Part shown: in pieces, positions 1 through 5,489 of the stretch | Position numbering within the stretch: position 1 is the stretch's first letter | How the letters are laid out: each line of letters begins with the position of its first letter | Assembly: GCA_005888315.1 (NCBI GenBank) | Contig: VAWH01000067.1 | Location: 1-64,000 of the forward strand | Origin: Actinomycetota bacterium | GTDB taxonomy: Bacteria > Actinomycetota > Thermoleophilia > Gaiellales > Gaiellaceae | Direction: 5' to 3' | Length of the DNA: 64,000 nucleotides | Program-made: the position numbers and the translations under genes | The notes under the pieces: generated by a model | The model's input: the letters and a program-made list of their open reading frames with translations, nothing else | Databases searched by the model: none | What the model was told of the DNA's origin: nothing

Positions 1-1077
1 ATGCATATTCATACCTGCGCTCAGGATGGCAGCGATGTTCATGCGCGCAGCGTCGCGCTCCAGCATGCCGTCGGTGACGAACATCAAGCGATCTCCGACC
101 TCCAATTGCAGCGCTTGCACCCGGTAGCCGCCTCCGGCCCGTAGACCGAACGGGCGGTCTGCCGCCAACTCAATCTGCTCGACTTCACCGGCCCGCAACC
201 GGAGCGGCGGGGGATGGCCGGCATTAACGATGGCCGCCGTCGCACTGGCCAGGTCGATCCGAACGAGCAGGCCGGTAACGAACTGGCTCTCGTCCGCCTG
301 CTCGGCCAGCGCATCATTCGCCAGACGCGCCTGCTCGGCCAGCCCGACCCCCCGCCGGCGGGCGTTGCGTAGACCTCCGACCAGCACCGTTGCCAGCAGG
401 GCGGCATCCATGGTGTGGCCCATCGCGTCGGTCATCGATAAATGCAGCGCGTCTCGATCCAGCGAAAAATCGAAGGTGTCACCGCCGATCTCACCCGCAG
501 GTTGCAACCAGGCGGCGAGAGTGAACTGCCCGGCCTCGCACGTAAAGGAGCCGGGCAACAGCCGGTGCTGGATCTCCGCGGCCAACGACAACGGAACCGA
601 GCGCTGCCCCCACTCGAAGAGGTCGGTGTAGCGGCGGTTCGCAATCACGACGTACGCCAGGAAGTGCGCGGCCAGAGCCACGTCGGCCACGGTCTGCTTA
701 CCCGGGTAGTCCCCCAGCCCCAGCTCCAGAACACCGACCGCTTCGCCGCGGCTGGTCACCGGCGCGAACAAGCGAGCGCCGCCATCCTCGCCGATCACCT
801 CGACCGCCTGGGCGGCCAACGCCCGCCCGTGGGGCGTGCCAACCAATGACACCCGCTCCGCGGTCTCCTTCCCCTGCATCCGCCCTTTCCCGCCCGAGTG
901 GCCCAGTCGGATCAGCGACCGCCCACTGAAGTCCGCGATCAAGAAGCTGACCTCGCGGGCTCCAATCGCCTGCGCCAGCGCGCCCGCGAGGGCATCGACC
1001 GCCGCGACCGGCGGGGCCGCCTCGACCGCCGCCAGCAATGAATTCAAGTTCAACGGGAAGTGCCGATTCTCACCCAT
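1..1077 (-). CDS. SpoIIE/PP2C-type serine phosphatase with N-terminal GAF-like domain (3' end outside window)
   Basis: The frame is open from an ATG at 1077 to the window edge, giving at least 359 codons with the stop not seen. Residues about 20-150 read like a GAF sensor domain (VSFLIADFSGRSLIRLGH, then LFAPVTSRGEAVGVLELG). From about residue 165 the chain is a SpoIIE-type PP2C domain: QHRLLPG lead-in, metal-binding GGDTFD near 198-203, TDAMGHTMDAALLATVL, NAGHPPPLRLR and VTDGMLERD. Such proteins usually dephosphorylate anti-sigma antagonists in partner-switching pathways. No anti-sigma antagonist lies inside the window, so the partner is unknown. It is read away from the membrane protein at 1255. 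Confidence 0.85.
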   Translation of the reverse strand, partial: MGENRHFPLNLNSLLAAVEAAPPVAAVDALAGALAQAIGAREVSFLIADFSGRSLIRLGHSGGKGRMQGKETAERVSLVGTPHGRALAAQAVEVIGEDGGARLFAPVTSRGEAVGVLELGLGDYPGKQTVADVALAAHFLAYVVIANRRYTDLFEWGQRSVPLSLAAEIQHRLLPGSFTCEAGQFTLAAWLQPAGEIGGDTFDFSLDRDALHLSMTDAMGHTMDAALLATVLVGGLRNARRRGVGLAEQARLANDALAEQADESQFVTGLLVRIDLASATAAIVNAGHPPPLRLRAGEVEQIELAADRPFGLRAGGGYRVQALQLEVGDRLMFVTDGMLERDAARMNIAAILSAGMNMH

Positions 1078-1254
1078 TTCGCCTAACTTAACGGGCCTAC
1101 GATCTGCCTATGTCGTGCGTGATACGGGAACGTGTTTGCTAAACGCGCTAGCTGCGCGAAGGTGTGGGGACGGCAGGCGGGCGTAAAATCAAGATATCCG
1201 TTGATTGTCGTATGAACTGGAAGGGAGAGGGTCATAAAGGTAGCCCCGACCCCC

Positions 1255-2304
1255 TTGCCGCCGGGCGCTCGTCTCCATCGGGACCCCCTTGCGGTGATTG
1301 CCGTTCCGCTTGCGCCGATCGTCCTGGAGGGGAGGTACCGGCTGCTGGTCGGAGCGCTCTGGCGCCTCGGTCGTTCGCGGACAGGCCAATGGATGCTCGG
1401 CGCCGGGTCGGGAGCGCTTGTGATCGCGCTGGCGCTCTTGGCTGCCCGCCATTTCGCGACGACCTCTTGGCCGCTCGCGACCGGAGACCCCGGTCTCCTC
1501 GTGGCGGCCGGGCTGCTCCTCCTTCTCGCCCAGGCCCTCAAGGCGTACGGCTGGGGGCAGCTGTTCGCGCCGGACGAGCGGCCAAAGATACTTGCGCTCG
1601 CGGCCGGCAACGGCGGCGCAGCGCTGATCGGCGTCGTCCTTCCCGGCCGTTTCGACGATGCGATGCGGGTCGCCGTCGTCCGCCGCTACCCCGGGTGTCC
1701 GGCCGGCGTGCGTGCGCTTTGCCTCTCGCTCGTCATGCTCGGCCTCATCGACAGCGTCGCCCTGGCGCCGCTCGCCTTTGCTGCCGCTCTTTTTCCGGAG
1801 GCCGGGATGGGCATGCGCGCCGCGCTCGCCGTGGTGACTGCCGCCGGAGTCGCGGCCGCCGCTCTGATTCTCGCTCTACCCCGGCTAGCCGCAAGTAGCC
1901 GGATCCTGCGCTTCCGGCTCGGACGCTGGCTGGGTCCGCGCACGACCTCCCGGCGGGCAGCAGCGCAAGCGTGGACGCTCGTGTCCGCCTGCTGGCTCGT
2001 CCGAGCGGTTGCGGTCTTCCTGCTCCTGGGCACGCTCGGGGTCGGCTTCTCGTTCCCGCTGGCGCTGCTCTTTCTCTGCGCCGCGGCGGCGGCTGCGGCG
2101 CTGCCGATCGGTCCCGCGGGCGCGGCGACCCAGGTCGGCGCGAGCGGCGCAGCGCTGATCGGCTCGGGCGTCGGAGCCTCAAAGGCGCTCGCTATCGCTG
2201 TTTCGGTCGGAGCTCTCGGGGTCTTCTCCGGGGCCGCGATCCTGCTTTTCGCAGTGGCCTGGCGCAACGGCCTGTCGCTGGTGCCGGCTCGGGCTGGCGC
2301 GTGA
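1255..2304 (+). CDS. Flippase-like (LPG synthase TM / UPF0104-type) integral membrane protein
   Basis: The product has up to 349 residues and about eight hydrophobic segments, with a late Gly/Ala-rich loop (LPIGPAGAATQVGASGAAL) in the place of the conserved glycine-rich motif of lysylphosphatidylglycerol synthase transmembrane domains and related putative flippases. Lipid or lipid-linked substrate handling is therefore a family-level inference. The start is uncertain: a TTG at 1255 has a poorly spaced purine tract about 25 bases upstream, and GTG at 1294 or ATG at 1393 are alternatives. An in-frame stop at 1213 limits upstream extension. No catalytic domain is attached. Confidence 0.65.
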   Translation: MPPGARLHRDPLAVIAVPLAPIVLEGRYRLLVGALWRLGRSRTGQWMLGAGSGALVIALALLAARHFATTSWPLATGDPGLLVAAGLLLLLAQALKAYGWGQLFAPDERPKILALAAGNGGAALIGVVLPGRFDDAMRVAVVRRYPGCPAGVRALCLSLVMLGLIDSVALAPLAFAAALFPEAGMGMRAALAVVTAAGVAAAALILALPRLAASSRILRFRLGRWLGPRTTSRRAAAQAWTLVSACWLVRAVAVFLLLGTLGVGFSFPLALLFLCAAAAAAALPIGPAGAATQVGASGAALIGSGVGASKALAIAVSVGALGVFSGAAILLFAVAWRNGLSLVPARAGA

Positions 2305-2509
2305 AGGAGCCGTCTGGAACGCCGAGCAAGCGCGCCGCGAATCCAACGGGGCAGCAGGATCGCAGCCATGGTGTGACCAGCGCGTTGGCTCTAGTTGTTG
2401 AAGCCGTCGAGGCTCTAGCACTTCCTCTCCGACTGTGACCCCTGGCCTGACCGCCGCAGTGCGCCGATTCGGACGCTCTGCCGCGCAGGACCCATAGAAG
2501 GAGCATCAG

Positions 2510-2701
2510 ATGCATGCCACCATTCGTCGGTACGAAGGTGTCGACACGACCCGCATGAACGAGGTCGTCGGCAAGATCAACGCGACGCTCGTCCCGCAGC
2601 TTCGCGAGCTCCCCGGTTTCTCTGGCTACTACCTGATCGAGGCTGGCAACGGCGTACTGAGCTCGTTTGGTCTCTTCGAGGGCATCCCCGCCCTCGTTTA
2701 G
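2510..2701 (+). CDS. Short ABM-type (dimeric alpha/beta barrel) protein, apparently truncated
   Basis: A strong ribosome binding site (AGAAGGAG, about 7 bases before ATG) precedes a 63-residue product beginning MHATIRRYEGVD and containing LRELPGFSGYYLIEAG and SSFGLFEG. This resembles the first two thirds of actinobacterial antibiotic-biosynthesis-monooxygenase-like proteins, usually about 100 residues long. The stop at 2699-2701 comes where family members continue with a helix and the last strand, and I could not find the missing part in another frame downstream. It may be a shortened functional form or a decayed gene. A GC-rich hairpin follows 22 bases later. Confidence 0.65.
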   Translation: MHATIRRYEGVDTTRMNEVVGKINATLVPQLRELPGFSGYYLIEAGNGVLSSFGLFEGIPALV

Positions 2702-2723
2702 CTCGACCGTACTCCGCATCATC

Positions 2724-2753
2724 GAGAGGGCCCCGCAGCACCGGGGCCTCTCT
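2724..2753 (+). terminator. GC-rich stem-loop after the ABM-like gene
   Basis: GAGAGGGCCCCG pairs with CGGGGCCTCTC across a short CAGCAC loop, giving an 11-bp stem with one bulged G. No clear T-tract follows, so it could act as an intrinsic terminator or only as an RNA-stabilising hairpin. Confidence 0.5.
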
Positions 2754-2799
2754 ATCCGTCTGTCAAGGAAGAAGACCGTGCTCTAGACTCGCTGGAAAG

Positions 2800-3036
2800 G
2801 TGGGCGAAGGATTCGCGCAGGGCAGCAGCGCAGACCTGATTGCCGAGCTCGAGGCGATCCTGCCCGAGCTGCGACGCCGACTCGACGACTATCTCGAGCG
2901 CGGCGCCTACGACATCATCGCCGCGGACGAGGGCTTTAACTTCGCAGGCCAGATCCAGCCGCTCCTGAGCGAGCTCGCTGAGCACGCCGTTCGCACTCGG
3001 GAGCAGCTGCTCGACCTGCAACAGGCGCGCAGTTAA
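2800..3036 (+). CDS. Small acidic helical protein of unknown function
   Basis: The product has 78 residues from a GTG start (GTGGGCGAAGG) preceded by GGAAAG. It is acidic and mostly helical (DLIAELEAILPELRRRLDDYLE), with no cysteines and no membrane segment. I do not recognise the family. Amino-acid composition and third-position GC favour this strand, although an antisense frame of similar length (2752-3021) also exists. It sits between the ABM-like gene and the convergent GGDEF gene. Confidence 0.5.
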   Translation: MGEGFAQGSSADLIAELEAILPELRRRLDDYLERGAYDIIAADEGFNFAGQIQPLLSELAEHAVRTREQLLDLQQARS

Positions 3037-3115
3037 GCGTTCGCGGCTCCACCGAGGCCATTCCGAGGCCAGCCGAGCGCCGCCCTGGTCAACATCGTCC
3101 CCCGGCTGTGGGCGG

Positions 3116-4279
3116 TCAGCTCCGACTTGCGCGGCGCGATTCGAGAAGCGCCTGATCTGCGCGCACGATCAGCTCTTCGAGGCTGTCCGTAGACTCGGCC
3201 TCGGCGAGGCCGAACGTGACCGAGTGGCCAGTGTTCACGGATCTCAGCCCTGCCACGATCTTCTCGAAGCGCTCTCTGGCGTCGGCGGCGGTCAGGTTCG
3301 GCATCGCACAGAGGAGTTCGTCGCCTCCGTAACGGACGAGGACGTCATACGGACGGACGTTGGCGCGAATGGTGTCGCTGACGAGACGAAGCAACGCGTC
3401 GCCCGCCACATGGCCGTGGACGTCATTCACCGCTTTTAGGCCATCGACGTCAACGAATGCGAGCACCAGCTTGGCGCCGGTGCGATGTGCGCGCTCGAGT
3501 TCGCGCGAGACCGCCGCAAGACCGGAACGGCGTGCCCAAGTACCGGTCAATTCGTCAGTCGTCGCGAGCGTCAATGCAGTCGCGGCTTCCGCTTGGGTCC
3601 CACGCGCTTCCGCTCGTTCTCGAGCCGCCTGTTCGCGGTCGCCGGCCGCCCGTCTACGGTCGTCTGCTGCTTTGGCCCGATCGGCCGCCGCCCGATACCG
3701 ATCTCGTTGTGCCCGTACAAGAAGGTCGTCGAGATTCGAACCTGTGTCTTCCTCGAGATCGTGTAGCCGGGCCAGCTCATCACGACCCTCGGCGCCGCGA
3801 TCACGAAGCTCGGCTGCTCGATCGCGGCCCTCCGCCGTTTCTAACCGCACGACCCCGGTTTCGTCGCGGAGCCCAGACACGAGGTGACGGTCCTGGGCTG
3901 ACCGCTGCCGCGCGCGAACGCTCCTGTGGTACACGGACGCGTCGCCTCCGGACGCGAAGTCATCGTCAGCAGCGTGCTGATCATCATCGGCGCTTCGCTG
4001 ATCGCGGTCACTCGCCGTCTGATCATGGTCCGACCACGTCTGATCCTGATCGCTTGCAGTCTGATCGCCGTCACTCGCGGTCTGATCGCCGCCAGCCTCA
4101 ACACGATCGTGAGCCGCCAGCTCGCCCGCGAGCTCGGCGCCGCAGGACGCACATACGAAAACGGCATTAACCTCACCGCAGGCTGGACACGCAATAACCC
4201 TCGTCAATCGTCCTGCTCCTCGCTCCGAGCGCAGGCCCGGTTGGCGATCAACTGTAGCGGCGTTGTCTTGCCCCTGCAC
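3116..4279 (-). CDS. Diguanylate cyclase (GGDEF) with N-terminal zinc ribbon and DQTxSD heptad repeats
   Basis: The product has 387 residues from a GTG; a TTG at 4207 is an alternative start. Order of parts: CxxC-x8-CxxC zinc ribbon (CPACGEVNAVFVCASCG, about 31-47); six seven-residue units of the type xDQTASD (about 64-105), the last two degenerate; a long charged helical stretch rich in RDRAAE/RDRRRAA units; then a GGDEF domain starting DELTGTW. The catalytic motif RYGGDEL is intact, the metal-binding FVDVDGLKAVND is present, and an RxxD inhibitory site (RPYD) lies five residues before it. It should make cyclic di-GMP with product inhibition. No transmembrane segment is seen, so it is probably cytoplasmic. 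What the zinc ribbon and heptads sense or bind is unknown. Confidence 0.88.
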   Translation of the reverse strand: MQGQDNAATVDRQPGLRSERGAGRLTRVIACPACGEVNAVFVCASCGAELAGELAAHDRVEAGGDQTASDGDQTASDQDQTWSDHDQTASDRDQRSADDDQHAADDDFASGGDASVYHRSVRARQRSAQDRHLVSGLRDETGVVRLETAEGRDRAAELRDRGAEGRDELARLHDLEEDTGSNLDDLLVRAQRDRYRAAADRAKAADDRRRAAGDREQAARERAEARGTQAEAATALTLATTDELTGTWARRSGLAAVSRELERAHRTGAKLVLAFVDVDGLKAVNDVHGHVAGDALLRLVSDTIRANVRPYDVLVRYGGDELLCAMPNLTAADARERFEKIVAGLRSVNTGHSVTFGLAEAESTDSLEELIVRADQALLESRRASRS

Positions 4280-4586: not shown

Positions 4587-5489
4587 ATGTCCGCGAGACC
4601 GAACGTAGCGGTGGTCCGCAATGCCATCGCGAAAAACGCGCCGGCGCTCGAAGAGTCGAGCGAGATCTCGACCGACTCGCTGCAGCTCTTTCTCAAGGAC
4701 GTCGGCAAGGTCGACCTGCTCACCGCGGCACAAGAGGTCGAGCTCGCCAAGCGGATCGAGCGCGGCGACCATCGCGCGAAGCAGGAGATGGTCGAGGCAA
4801 ACCTGCGCCTCGTGGTCTCGATCGCCAAGAAGTATCGGAACCAGGGGCTGCCGTTCCTCGACCTGATCCAGGAAGGGACGATCGGCCTCGTCCGTGCGGC
4901 CGAGAAGTTCGACCACCGCAAAGGCTTCAAGTTCTCGACCTACGCGACCTGGTGGATCCGCCAGGCCGTCGCCCGGGCGCTCGCCGACAAGGCGAGGACG
5001 ATCCGGATGCCGGTCCACATCGTCGAGAAGCTGAACAAGATCGCCAGGACGGAGCGGAAGCTCCGCGCCGAGCTTGGGCGCGACCCCTACGCCTGGGAGA
5101 TCGGCGACGAGCTCGAGCTCGACGCCGCCGAGGTCGAGTCGATCCGGCGCAGCTCCCAGCCCCCGGTCTCGCTCGAGAAGCCGGTCGGTGACGAGCAGGA
5201 CTCGGAGTTCGGTGATTTCCTCACAGACGAGAACCAGGAGCTGCCGGACGAGGCGGCGGAGGCGACGCTTCGCGAGGAAGCGCTGCGGAAAATCCTCGGT
5301 ACGCTGCCCAGCCGCCACCGAGCAGTGCTGGAGCTCCGCTACGGCTTCAACGGTGAGTATCCGCGGACGCTGGACGAGCTCGGCCGGACGTTCAACGTCT
5401 CGCGCGAGCGGATCCGCCAGATAGAGAACCAAGGTTTGAGGAACCTGGAGATGTTTGCAAGGGCGGAGAAGCTCAATCGCGACGTCTAG
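4587..5489 (+). CDS. Sigma-70 family RNA polymerase sigma factor (RpoD/SigA-like, no region 1.1)
   Basis: The product has 300 residues from an ATG behind GGGGAGTGA. Region 1.2 starts at [21 protein letters not shown]. Regions 2.1-2.4 contain [38 protein letters not shown] and the core-binding/-10 helix [13 protein letters not shown]. Region 3 carries RTIRMPVH and region 4 ends with the -35 helix [13 protein letters not shown]. The acidic N-terminal region 1.1 of typical housekeeping factors is missing, so it may be a group 2 factor. A second, longer sigma-70 paralogue lies at 15998-17044, and which of the two is housekeeping cannot be decided here. Confidence 0.93.

Follow-up and report, generated by a model that had tools for sequence, protein, structure and literature searches.

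The six-unit DQxxSD array encoded in a 64,000-nucleotide stretch of actinobacterial DNA (contig VAWH01000067.1, family Gaiellaceae; hereafter the window) is, according to structural models, one helix of a three-helix module with a seven-residue period, and this module most likely serves as a folded stalk that holds the catalytic domain behind it in position. My verdict is that the module is real, structured, modular and uncatalogued, yet of a known general kind, that of helical stalks controlling signalling outputs. Some soil actinobacteria place it before enzymes that make c-di-GMP and, more rarely, before other signalling enzymes.

The gene and its product

The features of the gene are collected in Table 1. 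Translation probably starts at the TTG at 4207 rather than at the listed GTG, because in the orthologues the Cys4 motif stands at the very N-terminus (MAKVVKCPAC, MANAVCPAC), AGGAGCAGGA lies immediately upstream of this TTG, and residues 1-25 of the listed ORF have a pLDDT <50 in the AlphaFold2 model.

Table 1. Features of the cyclase gene in the window; residues are numbered from the listed start
Feature	Position	Strand	Basis or remark
ORF as listed	3116-4279	-	387 aa, GTG start
Likely true coding region	3116..4207	-	TTG start = residue 25 of listed ORF
Cys4 zinc-ribbon-like motif CPAC-x8-CASC (residues 31-46)	4142..4189	-	conserved in family-level orthologues L093, L094, L091, L132 and in histidine-kinase protein L116
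Predicted helix H1 (residues 51-110), net charge -15	3950..4129	-	AlphaFold2, charge count
Six DQxx[SA]Dx heptads (residues 65-106)	3962..4087	-	sequence, lag-7 test, family conservation
Gly-Gly turn H1/H2 (residues 111-113)	3941..3949	-	non-helical in both models; its length differs among homologues, where it is Gly/Pro-rich
Predicted helix H2 (residues 114-176), Arg every 7 (124, 131, 138, 145, 152, 159, 166)	3752..3940	-	invariant alignment columns, AlphaFold2
Predicted helix H3 (residues 185-245), RxxAAxD heptads, extends into GGDEF domain	3545..3727	-	AlphaFold2, DxLT phase lock
GGDEF domain (residues 239-386): DxLT 242, DVDGLKAVND 277, RPYD I-site 309, GGDEL 318	3122..3565	-	Pfam PF00990, motif check

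The C-terminal part of the protein matches the Pfam GGDEF model with E=1.2e-27 (97.1 bits, against a gathering score of 23.8), and the A-site, metal, guanine and RxxD I-site residues are all present (GGDEL, DVDGLKAVND, GD, RPYD). The intact GGDEF domain with an inhibitory RxxD site that had been claimed in the first-pass annotation is therefore borne out as regards the completeness of the catalytic motifs and the RPYD at 309-312, but the A-site, at 318-322, reads GGDEL, with Leu in place of Phe. The protein is best explained as a soluble diguanylate cyclase. Among its relatives, L102, L107, L143 (and L110) are module-GGDEF proteins whose A-site and I-site motifs are degenerate; they are possibly c-di-GMP receptors or structural remnants.

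The four-cysteine zinc ribbon reported ahead of the array fared less well: the Cys4 motif is there and both of its CxxC knuckles are kept in the five relatives named in Table 1, but the Pfam Zn_ribbon_3 model scores 13.7 bits against a cut-off of 27. The motif is not essential to the module, since it is restricted to the window's family and L116; in an alignment of 17 proteins, most members of the module family lack it yet keep the array. In the window's clade, the sequence makes a zinc or redox input through this knuckle possible.

Judged by eye, an ORF at 4587-5489(+), divergent from the cyclase gene, encodes a sigma-70 family factor, and another at 1-1077(-), which runs off the window start, has the look of a GAF plus SpoIIE-type phosphatase. 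In the orthologue flanks examined, no conservation of the sigma-70/cyclase gene pairing was seen, and synteny with the nearest orthologues was looked for and not found. In the window's own genome the module occurs once, and GGDEF has nine other matches there.

Three predicted helices with a seven-residue period

The six consecutive seven-residue units noticed at first reading are present (DQTASDG, DQTASDQ, DQTWSDH, DQTASDR, DQRSADD and DQHAADD), and their periodicity far exceeds chance, with 26 lag-7 identities in the 50-residue array region against a mean of 6.3 (sd 2.1) and a maximum of 16 in 20,000 shuffles. Two other N-terminal segments also have period 7 (17 and 19 lag-7 identities), and in the DNA a 21-bp tandem array is found at 3998-4089. 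The RDRAAE-type helical units said to follow the array lie at about residues 118-235. When one residue class is counted per heptad position in 21 proteins, the make-up (in %) is D87 Q90 T37 A43/L22 S52/A46 D87 x for H1, R96 D53 x A31/T19 A68 x x for H2, and R100 x x A80 A74 x D54 for H3. Invariant residues across 17 proteins are Asp 72 and 100 in H1, Arg 124, 131, 138, 152 and 159 in H2, and Arg 208, 215 and 222 in H3. The array numbers 4 to 10 heptads among homologues, always in phase, and the heptad phase is kept in 95/95 of the non-terminal DQxx[SA][DE] motifs of 21 homologues.

Structure prediction of the array and helical region gave the three helices of Table 1, each of about 60 residues. 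AlphaFold2 returned them, together with a standard GGDEF fold, for the full protein (pLDDT 84, pTM 0.47), and returned the same three helices for the module alone when supplied with 21 sequences (pLDDT 87, pTM 0.64). The pLDDT of the array helix, about 77-94, together with the strict heptad phase and the absence of proline detailed below, agrees with the regular structure that had been suspected ahead of the cyclase.

Are H1 and H2 one helix or two? A single continuous H1-H2 helix was considered and rejected on account of the Gly/Pro-rich loops of varying length between them: the H1-to-H2 distance ranges from 22 to 31 across homologues, being mostly 24/25 or 28, and indels that are not multiples of the heptad are tolerated at both the H1-H2 and the H2-H3 junctions. 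Net charge is -15 for H1, 0 for H2 and +1 for H3. The H1 Asp at 65-100 and the H2 Arg at 124-159 occupy positions that add up to 224 and so lie symmetrically about a turn centre at residue 112, which suggests that H1 Asp would pair in register with H2 Arg across the turn; such a register would arise by chance one time in seven, and the numbers of H1 and H2 heptads do not covary in the homologue set (rho 0.09). An antiparallel bundle packing of the three helices is suggested by their equal lengths, the three-residue turn and the pTM of the models.

The third predicted helix enters the GGDEF domain in a fixed phase

Counted from the Asp of DxLT, the H3 Arg has phase 6 in 25 of the 27 proteins, with a tie in one more; the sole exception is L091, in which the junction is shortened. 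By contrast, the phases of H1 and H2 relative to DxLT are scattered over most values, and the indels elsewhere in those proteins are not confined to multiples of seven. This is the behaviour of a rigid stalk held in one register for H3, and of separate helices for H1 and H2. The conserved phase is owed in part to shared ancestry. With 26 of 27 proteins in agreement, a stalk governing cyclase dimerisation, as had been put forward in the first-pass annotation, is plausible.

Distribution of the module and its outputs

A contig scan of genomes recovered three relatives of nearly full length, with 64-69% identity over the best segment. All three come from actinobacterial metagenome-assembled genomes, and the one named Thermoleophilia has the same reading frame as was recovered from a genome of the window's own family. 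The array plus H2, used as a query, matched 19 of the 299 genomes of the class, and a profile of 17 modules matched 37 of 399, some through the Arg heptads only. In the family of the window, 7 of 103 genomes had a match to the query, but none of three congeners did. A first profile search of other classes returned mostly Arg-heptad proteins without the DQ array. Decayed copies of the window gene occur in related genomes, one frameshifted (L013/L132), one with internal stops (L134) and one without the 5' part (L133), which suggests repeated loss of the gene.

Searching for the repeat beside output domains yielded mostly GGDEF proteins, and the repeat is not unique to these. In L116, which belongs to another class, the Cys4 motif and the module precede a PAS-HisKA-HATPase kinase; in L147 a DQ module precedes a SpoIIE phosphatase; and in L151 and L170 Arg-heptad helices precede PAS-LuxR. 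In a tree of the modules, L116 groups with the window's group and L147 with the other GGDEF members, the exact branching being weakly supported. Of about 25 full DQ-type modules, just 2 are on their own (L156 and L167, whose proteins end after the module), so that in most cases the repeat comes with an output domain. L120, L122 and L123, from other actinobacterial families, are proteins that consist for the most part of ERE/RE-type heptads and have no output domain.

Two loci bring both heptad types together. In L178, a DQ-type GGDEF gene (923-2095(-)) is followed 45 bp on by an Arg-heptad SpoIIE phosphatase gene (2141-3994(-)), the two likely forming an operon. In L179, a DQ-type GGDEF gene (540-1769(-)) is divergent from an Arg-heptad PAS-LuxR gene (1824-3173(+)). 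An arrangement resembling the latter was also observed in L151/L175, where the frame on the GGDEF side is broken by a stop.

Relation to known domains and stalks

Residues 46-245 have no match in Pfam or NCBIfam. Among 21 module sequences compared with Pfam, just two gave weak FAZ1_C matches (best 3e-4), which were taken as compositional; otherwise no model covers the repeat, in keeping with the initial impression that no described domain has it. Two PDB sequence matches to the module profile, both designed single-chain antiparallel coiled coils (E=0.1), were likewise set aside as compositional, and Foldseek with the module alone found nothing below E=1 in the PDB (best E 1.6). A literature search for the repeat sequence found no description, and one on GGDEF with a zinc ribbon found nothing relevant, a heliorhodopsin paper being a coincidence of terms.

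In DgcZ (CZB-GGDEF), a soluble GGDEF enzyme, the N-terminal domain is helical and linked to zinc, the CZB being a helical bundle with a His/Cys zinc site. The window protein shares the soluble GGDEF enzyme and the N-terminal helical region but has a Cys4 ribbon-like motif instead, and no CZB match in Pfam.

The closest known protein by both structure and profile is SiaD of Pseudomonas aeruginosa, which is the top Foldseek match of the full model (PDB 7e6g) and the best-scoring NCBIfam entry (1.9e-31), at 109 bits against an equivalog cut-off of 290. Like the window protein, SiaD is a soluble GGDEF enzyme whose N-terminal input consists of helices only: its stalk dimerises, with two helices at the N-terminus running antiparallel to that coiled coil (PMC8457831). 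Those helices are, however, described as short, the description contains no DQxxSD array or Cys4, and the superposition on the window model is local only (rmsd 22.9 A).

The signalling helix, or S-helix, also adjoins GGDEF, histidine kinase and PP2C outputs as a heptad helix; it is a parallel coiled coil of about 40 residues with hydrophobic a/d positions and a central ERT signature, located between two domains (PMC1592074). Although the window module resembles it as a heptad helix next to GGDEF, histidine kinase and phosphatase outputs, it falls outside the definition (about 40 residues, ERT, between two signalling domains), having three helices of about 60 residues built on Arg/Asp plus Ala (DQxxSD, RxxAAxx) and lying mostly at the N-terminus. 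A parallel for H3 is offered by the linkers of Rec-GGDEF proteins (DgcR, WspR, PleD), which also enter DxLT in a fixed heptad phase and among which DgcR illustrates control of GGDEF by coiled-coil register (PMC8041772). The adjacent small residues of each window-module heptad recall the slippery axxdexx pattern of these linkers (PMC8041772), but the window protein has no receiver domain, and H3 carries Arg rather than Leu every seven residues and has its Ala pair at -3/-2 from DxLT instead of -4/-3.

Alternative roles for the array

The main rival to the helical-stalk reading is partner binding to the array. The DQxxSD helix could be a docking platform for a separate protein, in the manner of SiaC, which binds two repeated motifs on SiaD (PMC8457831); the number of repeats would then set the number of partners, and there would be no intramolecular Asp/Arg pairing. 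The conserved polar surface (Q 90%, D 87%), the variable copy number of 4-10, the stand-alone modules L156 and L167, and the Arg-heptad genes that adjoin DQ-type GGDEF genes (SpoIIE in L178, PAS-LuxR in L179) all fit such a platform. I nevertheless regard it as unlikely, as the flanks examined, those of the window gene and of its nearest orthologues, have no partner gene in common, and the window's own genome holds no second copy of the module.

A still less probable possibility is intrinsic disorder: the array would then be an acidic spacer or an electrostatic mimic, its length shifting by slippage of the 21-bp repeat. Its mean helix propensity is indeed poor (0.51 kcal/mol, compared with 0.30 for H3), Asp makes up 27% of its residues, the copy number ranges over 4-10, and AlphaFold2 can over-predict helix for regular repeats. 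Yet the homologous arrays include not one proline in 917 residues, whereas proline makes up 3.1% of the GGDEF parts and 7.3% of the sequence upstream of the array; glycine is at only 2.1%, and the heptad phase is strict. Moreover, the Asp, Gln, Ser/Ala and Asp positions of the heptad stay fixed while the others vary, and the array is predicted with high pLDDT, not as the disordered linker of variable copy number envisaged at the outset. The poor propensity may mean that H1 is helical only when docked. Finally, the calcium or zinc binding once suggested for the array, which through the regularly spaced Asp would let it sense metal, is very improbable, for although H1 contains 18 acidic residues (net charge -15) and the Cys4 motif adjoins it, the fixed Gln, the Ala/Ser pattern and the heptad spacing of Asp suit a helix repeat and not a metal loop, nothing resembles a calcium loop, most family members keep the array without the Cys4 motif, and a matching Arg array comes next in the sequence.

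A model for the helical input

I therefore return to the helical stalk, and favour, with rather more confidence than doubt, a soluble cyclase with a Cys4 knuckle and a folded three-helix input, in which H1 and H2 form an Asp/Arg ladder and H3 is a switchable dimerisation stalk. The zinc-ribbon-like knuckle would come first, followed by three helices of roughly 60 residues. H1 would fold back onto H2 through the Gly-Gly turn, bringing its once-per-heptad Asp opposite the once-per-heptad Arg of H2, with Ala/Ser packing; in H2 and in H3, every heptad has a single Arg and two small residues. H3 would continue into the GGDEF domain as the dimerisation stalk, its heptad phase being needed for the two active sites to meet. 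A trigger at the module, which might be partner binding, a shift in zinc occupancy or redox state at the Cys4 knuckle, or the swap of H1 for a partner helix, would alter the packing of the stalk and thereby switch c-di-GMP synthesis, while the RPYD I-site would provide product feedback. By analogy, the best reading is that the stalk works like those of SiaD or DgcR, controlling GGDEF dimerisation. Against this explanation weigh the full-protein pTM of only 0.47, the poor helix propensity of the array, the missing covariation of H1 and H2 heptad numbers, the absence of any similar solved structure, and the degenerate GGDEF motifs of some relatives.

A broader proposal, which I make tentatively and consider doubtful, is that Thermoleophilia and related actinobacteria have in this module an undescribed mobile signalling device, a three-helix Asp/Arg ladder that could form in cis or be exchanged in trans among GGDEF, PAS-histidine kinase, SpoIIE phosphatase and PAS-LuxR proteins. 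Exchange in trans, if true, would provide a physical link between GGDEF, kinase, phosphatase and LuxR pathways. Because H3 keeps its phase relative to the catalytic domain, the coiled-coil register model of diguanylate cyclase control can be tested independently and from sequence alone. The module obeys a strict rule, each heptad having one Asp or Arg and small residues at two positions, and adds a recognisable, uncatalogued helical input common to several kinds of bacterial signalling enzyme, in a group of hosts whose c-di-GMP signalling has been little studied.
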